The notes under the pieces were generated by a model. It was not told where the DNA came from and ran no database searches. It worked only from the letters and a program-made list of their open reading frames with translations. This document shows positions 29,297 through 37,223 of a stretch of 64,000 nt of DNA, one piece after another. The position numbers were made by a program, and so were the translations under genes. The number at the start of each line of letters is the position of its first letter. Position 1 is the first letter of the stretch. Origin of the DNA: Halobaculum limi (GTDB taxonomy: Archaea > Halobacteriota > Halobacteria > Halobacteriales > Haloferacaceae); contig NZ_CP120468.1 of the NCBI RefSeq assembly GCF_029490015.1, positions 2,542,001 to 2,606,000 on the forward strand, written 5' to 3'.

Positions 29297-29398
29297 ACGT
29301 TCGAGTTCACGACGGAGCAAGTTCAGGCTTCTCGCCGTCGAGGCTGTCTGTCGGAGCCATCCACAAGCCACTTGCCACGGGGTCACCGATTCCGTGTC

Positions 29399-30733
29399 AT
29401 GATCGCGATCATCGGCGGCGGCATCGCGGGTCTCGCCGCCGCCCGTCGCCTGCGCGAAGGCGGACGCGAGGTGGCGGTGTACGAGGCCGGTCCCGCGGAC
29501 GCGCTGGGTGGACTCGCCCGCACCTACTCGACCGCGGGTGACGACATCGAACAGTTCTACCACCACCTCTCGAAGTCCGAGCAGACTATCGTCAAACTCG
29601 CCGAGGACTTGGGACTGGGCGACAGCATCGAGTGGATCGTCGGCAAGAACGCCTACTACGTCGACGGCGTTGTCCACCCGCTTGACACTCCCTGGGAGAT
29701 TCTCGCGTACCCGCACATGAGCGTGTACGACAAGTTCCGCCTGGGGATGCTCACGCTCGAAATCGACGTGCGCGGCGGCGTCCCATCCTTCGACACCTAC
29801 GACGACCTCGCGGACTTCGAGGACGTTCCGATCAAACAGTTCCTCCTCGATCACACCTCTCGCGGCGTCTACGACAACTTCTTCGAACCCCTCTTGGACG
29901 CGAAGTTCGGCTCTCGGAAAGACGACGTGAGCGCCGCGTGGCTCCTCGGCCGGATCAAGTTCCGCGGCGAACGCGCCCTCCTGCGCGGCGAGATACTGGG
30001 CTACCCACAGGGCGGATTCGCACCCCTCGTCGACGCTCTCGTCGAGGACGTGGGGATGGAGCACATCGAGACGAACGCCCGCGTCACCGGCGTCGAGTTC
30101 GGTGAGGACGGCGCAGCCGACACCGACGCAGTCTCCGCCATCACCGTCGAACAGGACGGCGAGACACGCACCGAGGCGGTGGACGGCGTCGTCGTCGCGA
30201 CGATGCCGAACGTCCTCGAAGACCTCACCGGCTACGCCTGCGACATCGACTTCCAGGGCGCGGTGTGTGCGGTCGCGACGTTGGAGGAGTCGCTGACGGA
30301 CACCTACTGGCTCAACATCGGCCACGACGCCCCGTTCGGCGCACTCATCGAGCACACCAACTTCGTGCCGCCGGAACGGTACGGCGGCGACCACCTCCTG
30401 TACATCGCCAGTTACGTCCAGTCGGAGGAGGAGTGGCTGGCGACCGCAAGCGACGACGAGGTCGAAGACCGCTGGCTCGACCACGTCGGCGAGATGTTCC
30501 CCCAGTTCGACCGCGACTCGGTGTCGCAGTTCCGCCTCGCTCGTGCGCCGCGGGCCGCCCCCATCTACGAACGCGGGTACCGCGACATGGTCGTCCCGTA
30601 CGATCTGAGCGAGGAGGTGACAGAGGGAGTCTACTACGCGGGGATGGCCAGCGCCGCCCAGTACCCCGAACGCTCGCTTGACGGCGGCGTCGTCGCCGGC
30701 TACGAGTGTGCCGACCGCATCCTCGGGAACTGA
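29399..30733 (+). CDS. FAD-dependent oxidoreductase (protoporphyrinogen-oxidase/amine-oxidase-like)
   Basis: A 444-residue flavoprotein. The Rossmann dinucleotide site is IAIIGGGIAGLAAARRLREGG at the N-terminus with the acidic ribose contact VAVYEAGP near residue 32, and GLARTY follows. The C-terminal FAD loop is VYYAGMASAAQYPERSLDGGVVAGY near 415. The middle resembles protoporphyrinogen oxidase, phytoene desaturase and UDP-galactopyranose mutase relatives (YPQGGFAPLVDALVED near 201). The substrate cannot be decided. ATG 29399 starts exactly at the Rossmann strand. The gene is divergent from the acidic repeat protein, with 102 bases between. Confidence 0.85.
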   Translation: MIAIIGGGIAGLAAARRLREGGREVAVYEAGPADALGGLARTYSTAGDDIEQFYHHLSKSEQTIVKLAEDLGLGDSIEWIVGKNAYYVDGVVHPLDTPWEILAYPHMSVYDKFRLGMLTLEIDVRGGVPSFDTYDDLADFEDVPIKQFLLDHTSRGVYDNFFEPLLDAKFGSRKDDVSAAWLLGRIKFRGERALLRGEILGYPQGGFAPLVDALVEDVGMEHIETNARVTGVEFGEDGAADTDAVSAITVEQDGETRTEAVDGVVVATMPNVLEDLTGYACDIDFQGAVCAVATLEESLTDTYWLNIGHDAPFGALIEHTNFVPPERYGGDHLLYIASYVQSEEEWLATASDDEVEDRWLDHVGEMFPQFDRDSVSQFRLARAPRAAPIYERGYRDMVVPYDLSEEVTEGVYYAGMASAAQYPERSLDGGVVAGYECADRILGN

Positions 30734-33385: not shown

Positions 33386-33391
33386 TTATAT
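33386..33391 (+). promoter_or_regulatory. TATA box of the reductase fusion gene
   Basis: TTATAT, in the context CAGTTATATGCG, is centred 27 bases upstream of GTG 33416. This supports both the GTG start and a leaderless transcript. Confidence 0.55.
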
Positions 33392-33415
33392 GCGCTTCCG
33401 TCGTGTGCGTCCCGT

Positions 33416-35440
33416 GTGAACTGTCTGTTCGTCGGCGCGGGCGCGGTGGCCGAGCAGTACGCCGCCGGCCTCGCGGACTCGTCGCTGTCGCTCGCGGCCG
33501 TCTGTGATCTGGATCGCGACCGCGCGGCCGCGGTCGCTGACGTAGTCGCCGGGGAAGACGACGGCGTTGCTGGCGCGACGGACGCCGACCGCCCGGCCGT
33601 CTACGCCGACCTCGACGAGATGCTCGCCGCCGAAGACGCCCCACTCGTCGTCAACCTCACCAGCCACGCCGCACACGCGCCCGTCACCGAGATGTGTCTC
33701 GACGCCGGGCGACACGTCTTCTCGGAGAAGCCGCTCGCACTCGAACCCGAGGAAGCCGCCGACCTCCTCTCACTCGCCCGCGATCGAGGCCTCGCGCTCG
33801 GGTGTGCACCCATCGCTCCCGACTGTGACGCCCAGCGCCACGCCAAGACCCTCCTCACGGACGGCCGCCTCGGGGAGGTTCGCCTCGTGTACGCGACCGC
33901 GCACGTCGGCCGCGTCACCGAGTGGCACGACCGACCCGACTCGTTCCTCGCGGTCGGCCCACTGTACGACGGCGCGGTGTACCCGCTGTCGGTCCTCGTC
34001 GACTGGTTCGGTCCCATCGAGCGCGTGCGCTCGGCGGACGCCGTCGACGCGTGGCCTGACCGCGAGCAGCGCCGCCCCGACGCGCCGGCACACGTCGAGG
34101 CGACCGTCGCGTTCGCCGAGGGACCGGTCGTCTCGCTGCGAGCGAGTCTGTACGCCGACCACCGCAGTCGGGAGTTCTACTCGGTCGAACTCCACGGCGA
34201 CGACGGCACGCTCTATCTCGACGACGCGGGTGCGATGGCCGCCAACCGCGACGCCGTGCAGGTCCGCGGTGGCGACCGCGAGTCGGTGTCGGCACCGCAC
34301 CCCCGCCCGCAACGCGAGCGAACCCATCTGGACGGACCCGAGACGCTCGCTCGTGCCCTCGAACGCGGCGACCGCCCGCGCGACACGGCCGAGCGTGCGG
34401 CCCACGTCGTCGCCGTCTGTGCGGCCATCGAGGCCGAGGCGACCGCTCCCGAGGGAACCGGACGCGACGTGGCCGGCCCCGACGACGCGGCCGCCGGGTC
34501 GCTGTCCCTGGGTCACGTTCCCCCGACCGTTCGACCACCAGCGTCGGGGCGAGCGGCCGACTCCGCGCTTCGGCTTCCGCCCGTCGGGTTCGGGTGTTCG
34601 CGCTACCGAGACGGCGAGTACGTCGACCGAATTGACTCCGTCGGGACGGCGCTCGACGCGGGGTACCGCCTGCTCGACTCGGCGGAACTGTACGGCAACG
34701 AGTCGCGTATCGGCGACCTCCTCGACGCACCGGGGTCGCCCGACCGCGAGTCGCTGTTCGTGCTCGGGAAGGCGTGGAACACGAACCACGGTCACCTGCG
34801 AGAGGCGTGTGTGGGGTCGCTCGCGGAGTTGGGCGTCGACGCGTTCGACTGCTACGCGCTCCACTGGCCCGACGCGTGGGCGTATCAGGGACCGCTCCGG
34901 CGCCTCGCGGAGCGCCCGGTCGACGAACAGGAGTCACTGACGTTCCCGACCGACGACGACGGCGAGCGTGCGACCGCCGATCGCTCGCTGGCGGCGACGT
35001 GGCGCGACCTCGCGGGACTCTGCGAGGAGGGGCTGACGCGCACCATCGGCATCTGCAACGTCGATCTCGGGCCGCTCCAGTCGCTGGTCGCCGAGACGGG
35101 CATCGAACCCGCGCTGGTCCAGGTGGAGCGCCACCCCTACCTCCCGCAGACCGACCTCATCGAGTGGTGCCACGAGCGTGGCATCCGCGTCGTCGCCCAC
35201 TCGCCGCTGTCCGCGCCGGGACTGTTGGACGAGCAAGCGGTCCACGCGGTGGCGGAGTCGGCGGGCGTCACGCCCGCAGAGGCGGTGCTCGCGTGGGACG
35301 TCGCCGACGGCGTGGTTCCCATCCCCGCCAGCAACGACCCCGATCACGTCGTCGCGAACCTCGCGAGCGCACGGGCGGAACTGACCGACGCCGACCGTGC
35401 TCGCCTCGACGGCCTCGCGGACCCGGAGTTCGAGCGATGA
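33416..35440 (+). CDS. Fused Gfo/Idh/MocA dehydrogenase and aldo/keto reductase
   Basis: The 674-residue protein has two enzyme domains. Residues 1-330 form a Gfo/Idh/MocA dehydrogenase: Rossmann site LFVGAGAVAEQYAAGL, NLTSHAAHAPV, catalytic EKP in HVFSEKPLALEPEEA near 103, and RHAKTLLTDGRLGEVRLVYA near 140. A Gly/Pro/Ala linker follows. Residues 378-674 form an aldo/keto reductase: LLDSAELYGN near 421 (Asp and Tyr), VLGKAWN (Lys) and CYALHWPD near 482 (His), the complete AKR tetrad. NADP-binding features (VVPIPASNDPDH) are near 641. Both are usually separate proteins. The start is GTG 33416. The next gene overlaps by 4 bases. Confidence 0.9.
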   Translation: MNCLFVGAGAVAEQYAAGLADSSLSLAAVCDLDRDRAAAVADVVAGEDDGVAGATDADRPAVYADLDEMLAAEDAPLVVNLTSHAAHAPVTEMCLDAGRHVFSEKPLALEPEEAADLLSLARDRGLALGCAPIAPDCDAQRHAKTLLTDGRLGEVRLVYATAHVGRVTEWHDRPDSFLAVGPLYDGAVYPLSVLVDWFGPIERVRSADAVDAWPDREQRRPDAPAHVEATVAFAEGPVVSLRASLYADHRSREFYSVELHGDDGTLYLDDAGAMAANRDAVQVRGGDRESVSAPHPRPQRERTHLDGPETLARALERGDRPRDTAERAAHVVAVCAAIEAEATAPEGTGRDVAGPDDAAAGSLSLGHVPPTVRPPASGRAADSALRLPPVGFGCSRYRDGEYVDRIDSVGTALDAGYRLLDSAELYGNESRIGDLLDAPGSPDRESLFVLGKAWNTNHGHLREACVGSLAELGVDAFDCYALHWPDAWAYQGPLRRLAERPVDEQESLTFPTDDDGERATADRSLAATWRDLAGLCEEGLTRTIGICNVDLGPLQSLVAETGIEPALVQVERHPYLPQTDLIEWCHERGIRVVAHSPLSAPGLLDEQAVHAVAESAGVTPAEAVLAWDVADGVVPIPASNDPDHVVANLASARAELTDADRARLDGLADPEFER

Positions 35441-36285
35441 GCGAGGCGGTGAGGAGGCGCACGGGTCGGACACCCCGCGCGGTGGTCGCGTGGGCCGTCG
35501 CTGGCCTCGTCGCACTCGCGACGGGCGCGGCGGTGTTGACGGCGGGCGTCGCTCCCGACACTGCCGGCGTGTGGCTGCTCCCGGCGGCCGTCGTCGTCGC
35601 GTGGGAGTGGTGGTTCCTCACGGGCAACGTCGACGCAAATCACCCGACAGACGCTCCCGACGCACGACGCGACGGCCTCGGCCTCGCGAACGGCGTGACG
35701 CTCGGCCGCGGCCTACTGTATGCAGGCGTCGCCGGATTCCTCCTGACAGGATCGCTCAACGGCGCGTGGGCGTGGGCACCGGCGCTGTTGTACGGCGCGG
35801 GCGCGGCGCTCGACGCCGTCGACGGGGCCATCGCCCGCCACGTCGGCTCGCAGACCGTCCTCGGCGAACGGCTGGATATGGGCGTCGACACGCTCGGCTT
35901 CCTCGTCGCGCCGCTCGTCGGCGTTGCGTGGGGGCGAATCCCGGTCTGGTATCTCGCGCTGTCGGCCGCACGCTACCTGTTCAAGTTCGGGCGCTGGCAA
36001 CGCCAGCGCCGCGGCCTAGCGGTGTATGACCTCCCCGACAGTCGCGTGCGCCGCCCACTCGCCGGCCTCCAGATGGCGTTCATCGCCGTCGCTCTCGCGC
36101 CGGTGTTACCCGTCGCCATCGTCGAGTACCTCGCAGCGGTCGTCGTCACGCCCTCGTTGCTGGTGTTTGCTCGCGACTACCTCGCCGTCGCGGGCCACGT
36201 CGGCGGCAGTGACGGCGGCGACGAAGAGGACAACGGCGAGGACGACGAGGCAGTCGAGCGCGTAGACGCCGCTGGCGACGACTGA
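35437..36285 (+). CDS. CDP-alcohol phosphatidyltransferase
   Basis: A membrane enzyme that transfers a CDP-activated lipid or polyol to an alcohol. The 282-residue protein has six or so hydrophobic helices. The family signature is complete near residue 128: the Asp-Gly of AVDGAIARHVG, then Gly, Asp and Asp in TVLGERLDMGVDTLG, fitting DG-2-AR-8-G-3-D-3-D. The C-terminus is an Asp/Glu-rich tail. It overlaps the reductase fusion by ATGA, so both are translated together, which hints that the fusion acts in lipid or polyol metabolism. The exact alcohol (serine, glycerol phosphate, inositol) cannot be chosen. Confidence 0.88.
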   Translation: MSEAVRRRTGRTPRAVVAWAVAGLVALATGAAVLTAGVAPDTAGVWLLPAAVVVAWEWWFLTGNVDANHPTDAPDARRDGLGLANGVTLGRGLLYAGVAGFLLTGSLNGAWAWAPALLYGAGAALDAVDGAIARHVGSQTVLGERLDMGVDTLGFLVAPLVGVAWGRIPVWYLALSAARYLFKFGRWQRQRRGLAVYDLPDSRVRRPLAGLQMAFIAVALAPVLPVAIVEYLAAVVVTPSLLVFARDYLAVAGHVGGSDGGDEEDNGEDDEAVERVDAAGDD

Positions 36286-36359
36286 GCCACCCAGCGCCAC
36301 TGCCCGAGCGCCGCGCCGGTTCCCGTGGATTGATGCCCGGCGCCGCCGCGGCTTCGCGT

Positions 36360-37223
36360 ATGCGAGTTATCTGCCACGGCGGCGCGGGCGGTGTCCCCGA
36401 CGAACCAGACCCGAGACAGGCGGTCCTCGACGAGGCCGCCGAGACGGGCGCGGCCGCCGCGGACGTGGTCGACGCCGTCGTCGACGCCGTCGCGGTGTTG
36501 GAGGAGTCGCCGCGCTTCAACGCGGGCTACGGCGGCGCGGTCCAGTCGGACGGTATCGTCCGCACCGACGCGGGGATGATGACCGACGACCGCGAGGCGG
36601 GCGCGGTCGCGTCGATGCCCGGCGTCGCCAACGCCGCCGCGGTTGCGCGTGTGGTGATGGAGGAGACGCCCCACGTCTTCGTCTCGGGCGTCCACGCCGT
36701 CGACCTCGCGGACGACTTCGGGGTCGATGTGGAACGCGACCTCCTCACCGACGATACGCGTGAAAAGTACGAGGACGCCGACCCGCCGGGCCACGACGCC
36801 GGCCCGAAGGCGCACCTCGACTGGTTGGAAGAGCGGTTCGCCGGGCACGACACCGTCGGCGCGGTCGCCCACGACCCGGTGACGGACGCGTTCGCCGCCT
36901 GCACCTCCACCGGCGGGCGGACGTTCGCGCTCGCGGGCCGCGTCGGCGACGTGCCACAGATCGGATCGGGCTTCTTCTGTGCGCCCGCGGGCGGCGCCAG
37001 CGCCACCGGCGCCGGCGAGGACATCGCCAAGGCGACGCTCACGCGGCGGGCCGTCCGACACTTGGAGAACGGGATGGACGCGCAGGCGGCCGCCGACCGC
37101 GCAATCAGGGAGTTCGGCGAACTCACCGGCTCCTCTGCTGGCGTCATCGTGTTGGACGAGGCGGGCGCGGGGTCGGCGTTCAACTCCGAGGGGATGCAGA
37201 CGAGCGTCGCCACCTCGGAGTAG
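36360..37223 (+). CDS. Isoaspartyl peptidase / L-asparaginase (Ntn-hydrolase)
   Basis: A 287-residue plant-type asparaginase. These are made as a precursor that cleaves itself before a Thr, which becomes the nucleophile of the beta subunit. Motifs are VICHGGAGGV at the N-terminus, PRFNAGYGGAVQSDG near residue 51, the cleavage site HDTVGAVAHD near 162 with Thr as the probable nucleophile, CTSTGGRTFALAGRVGDVPQIGSG near 181, and GASATGAGEDI near 213. The residue before the Thr is Asp, where the usual family member has Gly. It starts at ATG 36360, 75 bases after the phosphotransferase. Confidence 0.92.
   Translation: MRVICHGGAGGVPDEPDPRQAVLDEAAETGAAAADVVDAVVDAVAVLEESPRFNAGYGGAVQSDGIVRTDAGMMTDDREAGAVASMPGVANAAAVARVVMEETPHVFVSGVHAVDLADDFGVDVERDLLTDDTREKYEDADPPGHDAGPKAHLDWLEERFAGHDTVGAVAHDPVTDAFAACTSTGGRTFALAGRVGDVPQIGSGFFCAPAGGASATGAGEDIAKATLTRRAVRHLENGMDAQAAADRAIREFGELTGSSAGVIVLDEAGAGSAFNSEGMQTSVATSE

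Follow-up and report, generated by a model that had tools for sequence, protein, structure and literature searches.

A Gfo/Idh/MocA-aldo/keto reductase fusion of Halobacteria and its linked accessory CDP-alcohol phosphotransferase

The locus analysed here brings together members of three well-described enzyme families. Gfo/Idh/MocA dehydrogenases (PF01408/PF22725) have a Rossmann domain with the lysine of an E-K-P motif, followed by a C-terminal α/β domain with a D-x3-Y motif. AKR1-like aldo/keto reductases (AKRs; PF00248) are barrels with a catalytic tetrad. The haloarchaeal CDP-alcohol phosphotransferases (CDP-APs), namely HVO_1143 (PssA/AssA), HVO_1297 (AisA) and HVO_1136 (PgsA1), share the CAPT motif and PF01066. 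All of these features recur in a locus of Halobaculum limi, within a stretch of 64,000 nucleotides (C1:2542001-2606000, hereafter the window) of a 3.48 Mb genome in two contigs. The differences are that here an AKR domain is fused behind the Gfo/Idh/MocA domain in a single chain, that the AKR domain has Ser or Ala in place of its NADPH lysine and is degenerate in two lineages, and that the CDP-AP encoded immediately downstream is an accessory one. Among 292 genomes of Halobacteria, every genome with the whole fusion also has this CDP-AP. From the sequences, the safest statement is that the fusion would be a tailoring oxidoreductase of an accessory pathway which ends in, or passes through, CDP-alcohol phosphotransfer.

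The fusion protein

The fusion gene (33416-35440, forward strand) is an uninterrupted open reading frame (ORF) with a GTG start, encoding 674 amino acids. Pfam places a Rossmann NAD(P)-binding domain (GFO_IDH_MocA) at residues 1-128 (33416-33799; 2e-17, 64.4 bits against a cut-off of 24), a Gfo/Idh/MocA C-terminal domain (GFO_IDH_MocA_C3) at residues 141-266 (33836-34213; 8e-13, 48.9 bits against a cut-off of 27) and an AKR domain (Aldo_ket_red) at residues 390-668 (34583-35419; 2e-37, 129.3 bits). In Gfo/Idh/MocA enzymes the equivalents of K105, D185 and Y189 are catalytic, and many members have His at the position of Y189. An alignment was made of 59 full-length fusion homologues, the window protein included. 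K105 (33728-33730) and P106 of the E-K-P motif (residues 104-106) are invariant in it, with E104 replaced by Q in 14 rows, and D185 and Y189, which lie in the sequence D-G-A-V-Y, are also found in all 59. The same is true of the complete AKR tetrad, consisting of D421 (34676), Y426 (34691), K452 (34769) and H483 (34862). The initial annotation had described both enzyme domains as intact, and with all Pfam domains above cut-off and both active sites invariant, this description holds. Identity of at least 98% is found for 83 residues of the Gfo part and 84 of the AKR part, and for none in the linker (residues 356-385; 34481-34570).

An AlphaFold2 model, calculated from a 30-row alignment, has a mean pLDDT of 87.6 and a pTM of 0.86, with pLDDT falling below 50 at linker residues 357-366. 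By both sequence and Foldseek, the AKR domain is most similar to AKR1A4 (4gac; approximately 31% identity, Foldseek E 1.4e-21), a match which identifies the (β/α)8 fold, and its best solved relatives are AKR1 enzymes. The best NCBIfam matches of the fusion, to levoglucosan and inositol dehydrogenases, are weak and far under every equivalog cut-off. The fusion is predicted to be a soluble two-domain oxidoreductase.

The residues likely to contact the cofactor were also compared. NAD-binding Rossmann folds usually have an Asp after their second strand, and at this position the fusion has Asp31, which is invariant in the alignment. In the AKR half, the NADPH-contacting Lys of the IPKSxxxxR motif (IPKS in the PDB relatives) is Ser or Ala in all 59 fusions, and the Arg, the second NADPH residue of the motif, is His in all 59. 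The Lys is present in four AKR paralogues from the genome of the window, yet these also have His at the Arg position, which weakens any cofactor assignment made from the AKR residues. Moreover, this Lys and Arg are not required across the AKR superfamily. The replacement of Lys by Ser or Ala is a weak hint that NADPH may not be strictly required.

In four homologues the AKR half has decayed, and its tetrad is lost or nearly so. In Haloarcula halophila and Haloarcula sp. GH36, the Gfo half keeps the catalytic K, D and Y and is approximately 60% identical to the window protein, and the AKR half is 32% identical over 208 residues and retains none of the tetrad residues. Pfam finds no AKR domain in the H. 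halophila protein, which was considered as a second full fusion and rejected because of this decay. Genomes G123 and G173 of the class sample described below are similar, the CDP-AP, an alcohol dehydrogenase (ADH), a PTPS-like protein and a methyltransferase still adjoining; G123 retains the aligned Asp at position 421. By a tree of the Gfo part, the decay may have arisen once or twice. The loci concerned are L122 (9815-11554), L125 (7815-9554), L127 (from 6244) and L128 (from 6219). It is worth adding that in the copy of Haloarcula pelagica the N-terminal frame is broken.

Distribution and linkage to the CDP-alcohol phosphotransferase

Two samples were searched, one of 292 genomes of Halobacteria (the class sample) and one of 392 genomes of the phylum. 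The whole-length fusion is present in 71 of the 292, a count that includes three genomes (G088, G095 and G288) with two aligned pieces within one open frame. Outside the 71 are two copies truncated at contig ends (G278, G044), the decayed copies of G123 and G173, and a remnant with a stop in G109. At E 1e-40 the phylum sample gave matches in 23 of its 392 genomes, all from the order to which the window belongs. A search for loci gave 41, of which 34 are haloarchaeal and have a whole or partial fusion, and 7 are bacterial with partial Gfo matches only. Plasmid matches outside the haloarchaea, among those listed (12 of 27), cover the AKR part only. As far as searched, the fusion is restricted to Halobacteria. 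The initial annotation had reasoned that relatives with two separate genes and no fusion would speak against it; no split ortholog pair was seen in the class sample, in which the fusion-less genomes gave weak single-domain matches only. Some copies are on plasmids, in Haloarcula, Salinigranum and Halobellus. Public annotation names the protein only as 'aldo/keto reductase' or 'Gfo/Idh/MocA family oxidoreductase', a search of a limited collection of papers found no description of the fusion or its gene set, and in a paper on archaeal fusions 'aldo' is absent from the main text (PMC11237513). Judged by sequence, each domain belongs to a known family; it is the fusion and its gene set that were not found described.

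The downstream gene (35437-36285, forward strand) encodes a CDP-AP of 282 amino acids that matches PF01066 (4e-14). Its CAPT motif, D-x2-D-G-x2-A-R-x7,8-G-x3-D-x3-D, is at residues 126-151 (35812-35889) and is found in 44 of the 46 rows of the CDP-AP tree; the two rows without it (L041 and L062, of 207 and 62 amino acids) are among the shortest. The 4-base overlap reported in the initial annotation was confirmed, the ATG at 35437 lying inside the fusion stop (ATGA, 35437-35440), and the same overlap is annotated in five plasmid records, from Salinigranum marinum, Halobellus limi, Haloarcula halophila, Haloarcula sp. GH36 and Haloarcula pelagica. The overlap suggests translational coupling of the two genes.

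In the class sample, a CDP-AP of this type is matched in 166 genomes (E 1e-12), including all 71 with the fusion, and the remaining 126 are without a match. In 67 of the 71 it is less than 1 kb downstream on the same strand, within 400 bp in 34 and at 400-1000 bp in 33. The latter spacing leaves room for one small gene, which in 11 named loci is a DUF7475 membrane protein. In the other four, the CDP-AP is approximately 4 kb upstream (two genomes), on another contig (one) or far off (one, G237). In G237 the fusion (L092 6194-8005) and the CDP-AP (L091 6428-7123) are approximately 1 Mb apart, the sole such case of the 71. The CDP-AP is inside 32 of the 34 named haloarchaeal loci, the exceptions being L048, which ends at a contig edge, and L061.

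The linked CDP-AP is an additional one. A family search gave exactly two CDP-OH_P_transf matches in 106 of the 292 genomes, and since none of these carries either the fusion or the fusion-type CDP-AP, the third CDP-AP is accessory and would make something optional. The genome of the window has three, namely that linked to the fusion, another behind hisC and an adenylate-kinase-like gene (adk2), and an unlinked one of 292 amino acids; we assigned the names hisC and adenylate-kinase-like from the ORFs themselves (compare HVO_1295-1297 in PMC8305020). According to the sections of the same paper used here, phosphatidylglycerol (PG) and phosphatidylglycerophosphate methyl ester (PGP-Me) are typical haloarchaeal lipids, so that the two CDP-APs held in common should include the core synthases. 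With 126 genomes lacking a match and 106 having only two CDP-APs, the fusion-linked protein was rejected as the core archaetidylglycerophosphate synthase. In G022 the CDP-AP adjoins a methyltransferase, and for this reason the fusion-linked CDP-AP may be of the PgsA1 (HVO_1136/HVO_1135) group, for which those sections of PMC8305020 give only distant partial matches to characterised proteins.

Trees were calculated for the CDP-AP (46 rows) and the fusion (30 rows). The CDP-APs linked to a fusion fall into a single clade (98/98; 35 rows), in which three fusion-less rows are nested, one of these next to the remnant fusion of G109; the partial row L062 is outside the clade, on a very long branch. 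Pairwise distances of the fusion and the CDP-AP are correlated (Mantel r 0.82, n = 27 of the 30 rows, 0/2000 permutations). The fusion tree has groups that match those of the CDP-AP tree, with Halorubrum salinum beside Natronomonas and Natrinema, and Halosimplex beside other Halorubrum, and these suggest that the gene pair has been transferred between families. Halorussus and Halolamina are placed differently in the two trees, at partly unsupported forks. The tie between the fusion and the CDP-AP, which had been proposed from the overlap, is therefore strong, given its presence in 71 of 71 genomes, the congruent trees and the accessory nature of the third CDP-AP.

The wider gene set and its possible product

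Clustering of the ORFs of the 34 named loci identified recurrent neighbours. These are a GTP cyclohydrolase III/IIa, a zinc-ADH, a PTPS-family protein, a methyltransferase, the DUF7475 protein, a second membrane protein and a GT4 glycosyltransferase. Within the fetched stretch of these loci, PTPS was found in 21, ADH in 22 (one of them partial) and GTP cyclohydrolase in 11. On the plasmids of Haloarcula halophila, GH36 and pelagica, a fusion-type gene, the CDP-AP, GTP cyclohydrolase IIa, zinc-ADH, the PTPS-like protein and the methyltransferase are codirectional, with genes that overlap or are no more than approximately 25 bp apart, and the GT4 gene is ahead of them in the divergent direction. 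A variant with much of the gene set, under generic annotation names, is found on plasmid pNG700 of Haloarcula marismortui (L121 9373-17545). In the genome of the window, the PTPS-like, GT4 and methyltransferase genes are elsewhere (C1:479407), unlinked to the fusion and CDP-AP. The segment concerned (C1:478294-481810; L103 6295-9811) holds DUF7475, a YdjM-like membrane protein, the PTPS-like protein, the GT4 and the methyltransferase, and weak NCBIfam matches liken the GT4 to MshA/BshA.

Of the 292 genomes, 171 have the PTPS-like gene, among them all 71 with the fusion, and its distribution closely follows that of the CDP-AP: 162 genomes have both, 117 have neither, 9 have only the PTPS-like gene and 4 only the CDP-AP. 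A second GCH_III match, a count in which fragments may be included, is found in 22 of the 71 fusion genomes and in 18 of the 221 others. In comparison with riboflavin arfA (HVO_1284), the cluster holds a copy of GTP cyclohydrolase IIa, but the second arfA copy occurs in a minority. In comparison with PTPS/QueD (COG0720), it holds a protein with the same PF01242 domain, but the catalytic residues are replaced. PTPS and QueD enzymes use zinc-binding His residues, a catalytic Cys and an Asp-His pair. In the PTPS-like protein, H15, H29 and H31 are mostly kept, Glu is found at the position of the QueD Cys, Asp69 is at the His position, and there is no Asp-His pair. On alignment and conservation, we rejected the linked protein as a canonical PTPS/QueD.

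The reading that we prefer, as a tentative one that falls only a little short of an even chance, is that the fusion, the third CDP-AP, the zinc-ADH, the PTPS-like T-fold protein, the GT4 and the methyltransferase act in one accessory biosynthetic pathway, whose product is most simply a minor archaeol lipid. Using NAD(H) or NADP(H), the Gfo domain would dehydrogenate or reduce a polyhydroxylated intermediate at a secondary hydroxyl or a carbonyl group, and in most lineages the AKR domain would reduce another carbonyl in compounds of that class. The resulting alcohol would be linked in a phosphodiester by the membrane CDP-AP, either as the acceptor itself or after attachment to the acceptor. In the simplest form, CMP would be displaced from CDP-archaeol, giving a minor polar lipid whose head group is unusual, and the GT4 and methyltransferase would decorate the product. 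The consulted portion of PMC9385802 describes archaeal CDP-APs as acting on CDP-archaeol. Many haloarchaea lack the whole set, and the core phospholipids must therefore be independent of it.

Several points weigh against this proposal. CDP-archaeol is assumed as the acceptor lipid, and relatives of the CDP-APs can make soluble phosphodiesters. The fusion reaches no curated equivalog in NCBIfam. The Fisher and Mantel tests are uncorrected for phylogeny. The AKR catalytic residues are lost in two lineages in which the cluster is intact. The 221 fusion-less genomes have the CDP-AP in 95 cases and the PTPS-like gene in 100, which implies that the core of the pathway can do without the fusion. Finally, a simple polyol head group leaves the PTPS-like and GTP cyclohydrolase genes unexplained.

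A GTP-derived product would likewise fit the wider cluster, which has a PTPS-like gene and often a further GTP cyclohydrolase IIa, and it is possible, if doubtful, that the pathway makes a glycosylated, phosphodiester-linked compound of the pterin or pyrimidine type. The extra GTP cyclohydrolase IIa would open GTP, the PTPS-like protein and ADH would shape a side chain, the fusion would reduce its two carbonyls, and the GT4 would add a sugar. The gene order of the Haloarcula plasmid operon supports this, as do the co-occurrence of the PTPS-like gene with the CDP-AP and fusion, the enrichment of the second GCH_III match in fusion genomes and the relationship of the AKR domain to AKR1 enzymes. 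To our knowledge there is no precedent for a CDP-AP in pterin synthesis, and this weighs on the other side, together with the non-canonical residues of the PTPS-like protein and the presence of the second GTP cyclohydrolase IIa in only 22 of the 71 fusion genomes. Glycosylated pterins of halobacteria are a subject of older papers, although the search of the collection found none of these. AKR1 members make tetrahydrobiopterin (BH4) from 6-pyruvoyl-tetrahydropterin by reducing the pyruvoyl side chain, according to the part of PMC4423366 consulted, and precedents for modified pterins in the excerpted text of PMC3546692 are the cyanobacterial pterin glycosides, formed by a glycosyltransferase, and solfapterin in Sulfolobus. 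A more specific form, with a pathway running from GTP to the CDP-AP, a product possibly linked to archaeol (a 'pterin lipid') and the fusion as side-chain reductase in place of sepiapterin reductase, we regard as unlikely.

Since it combines two opposing redox domains in a single chain and both active sites are conserved, the fusion could instead be a redox-neutral epimerase or isomerase, in which Gfo oxidises a hydroxyl, AKR reduces the carbonyl with opposite stereochemistry, and one nicotinamide pool is recycled. The invariant Asp31 agrees with this, as does the Ser or Ala at the AKR lysine in all 59 fusions, where four paralogues of the same genome have Lys. The change of Arg to His is not distinctive, as it also occurs in those paralogues, and loss of the AKR half in two lineages would abolish an epimerase, yet the rest is kept; we consider this explanation quite unlikely. 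The initial annotation had one carbonyl intermediate channelled between both active sites to give a polyol for phospholipid. Retention of the fusion in 71 of 292 genomes, its many conserved residues (83 and 84 in the two parts) and a predicted domain arrangement that is well determined by its pTM all favour this. Against it, the tetrad is lost in H. halophila, GH36, G123 and G173, where the Gfo site, the CDP-AP and the rest of the cluster remain. The AKR step can therefore be lost from a gene set that is otherwise retained. This argues against obligatory channelling and gives the Gfo activity the more central role. Channelling as a necessity is accordingly not supported, and this version as a whole seems improbable. 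That the genes are merely carried together on plasmids and islands, with no common pathway, as the copies on Haloarcula, Salinigranum and Halobellus plasmids might suggest, is scarcely credible. The association holds where all other neighbours differ, and between the PTPS-like gene and the CDP-AP it holds where they are unlinked, as in the genome of the window.

The co-occurrence of these genes points to a possible undescribed accessory haloarchaeal pathway behind the fusion. For the polar lipids and small molecules of haloarchaea, only some of the genes responsible have been identified, and the linked CDP-AP may represent the group left uncharacterised in the consulted sections of PMC8305020. 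The CDP-AP and PTPS-like genes, which occur in more than half of the sampled haloarchaea, and the fusion, which occurs in a quarter, form one accessory set, and this makes a hidden pathway testable. Should its product link GTP-derived chemistry with a phosphodiester or a lipid, the molecule would belong to a new class.

Promoter and flanking genes

A TATA-like element, TTATATG, is found at 33386-33392 on the forward strand, ending 24 nt ahead of the GTG start of the fusion gene; there are 3 such elements in the window, against 0.27 expected. A distance of this size between TATA element and start fits the leaderless transcripts of haloarchaea, and the placement is consistent with a leaderless transcript here. 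A scan of the DNA for sigma-70 promoters gave no match, as expected for an archaeon.

Around the locus, carB, DUF5815, FAD oxidoreductase, isocitrate dehydrogenase and asparaginase genes are common with Halobaculum saliterrae and H. litoreum, the nearest named relatives. The Asparaginase_2 family gene (36330-37223) is directly 3' of the CDP-AP on the same strand, and because it is kept in the nearest relatives only, it is probably outside the pathway. At 29372-30733, a protein annotated as 'hypothetical protein' resembles FAD-dependent amine oxidoreductases, with 514 bits to NCBIfam PRK07233 against a cut-off of 252.

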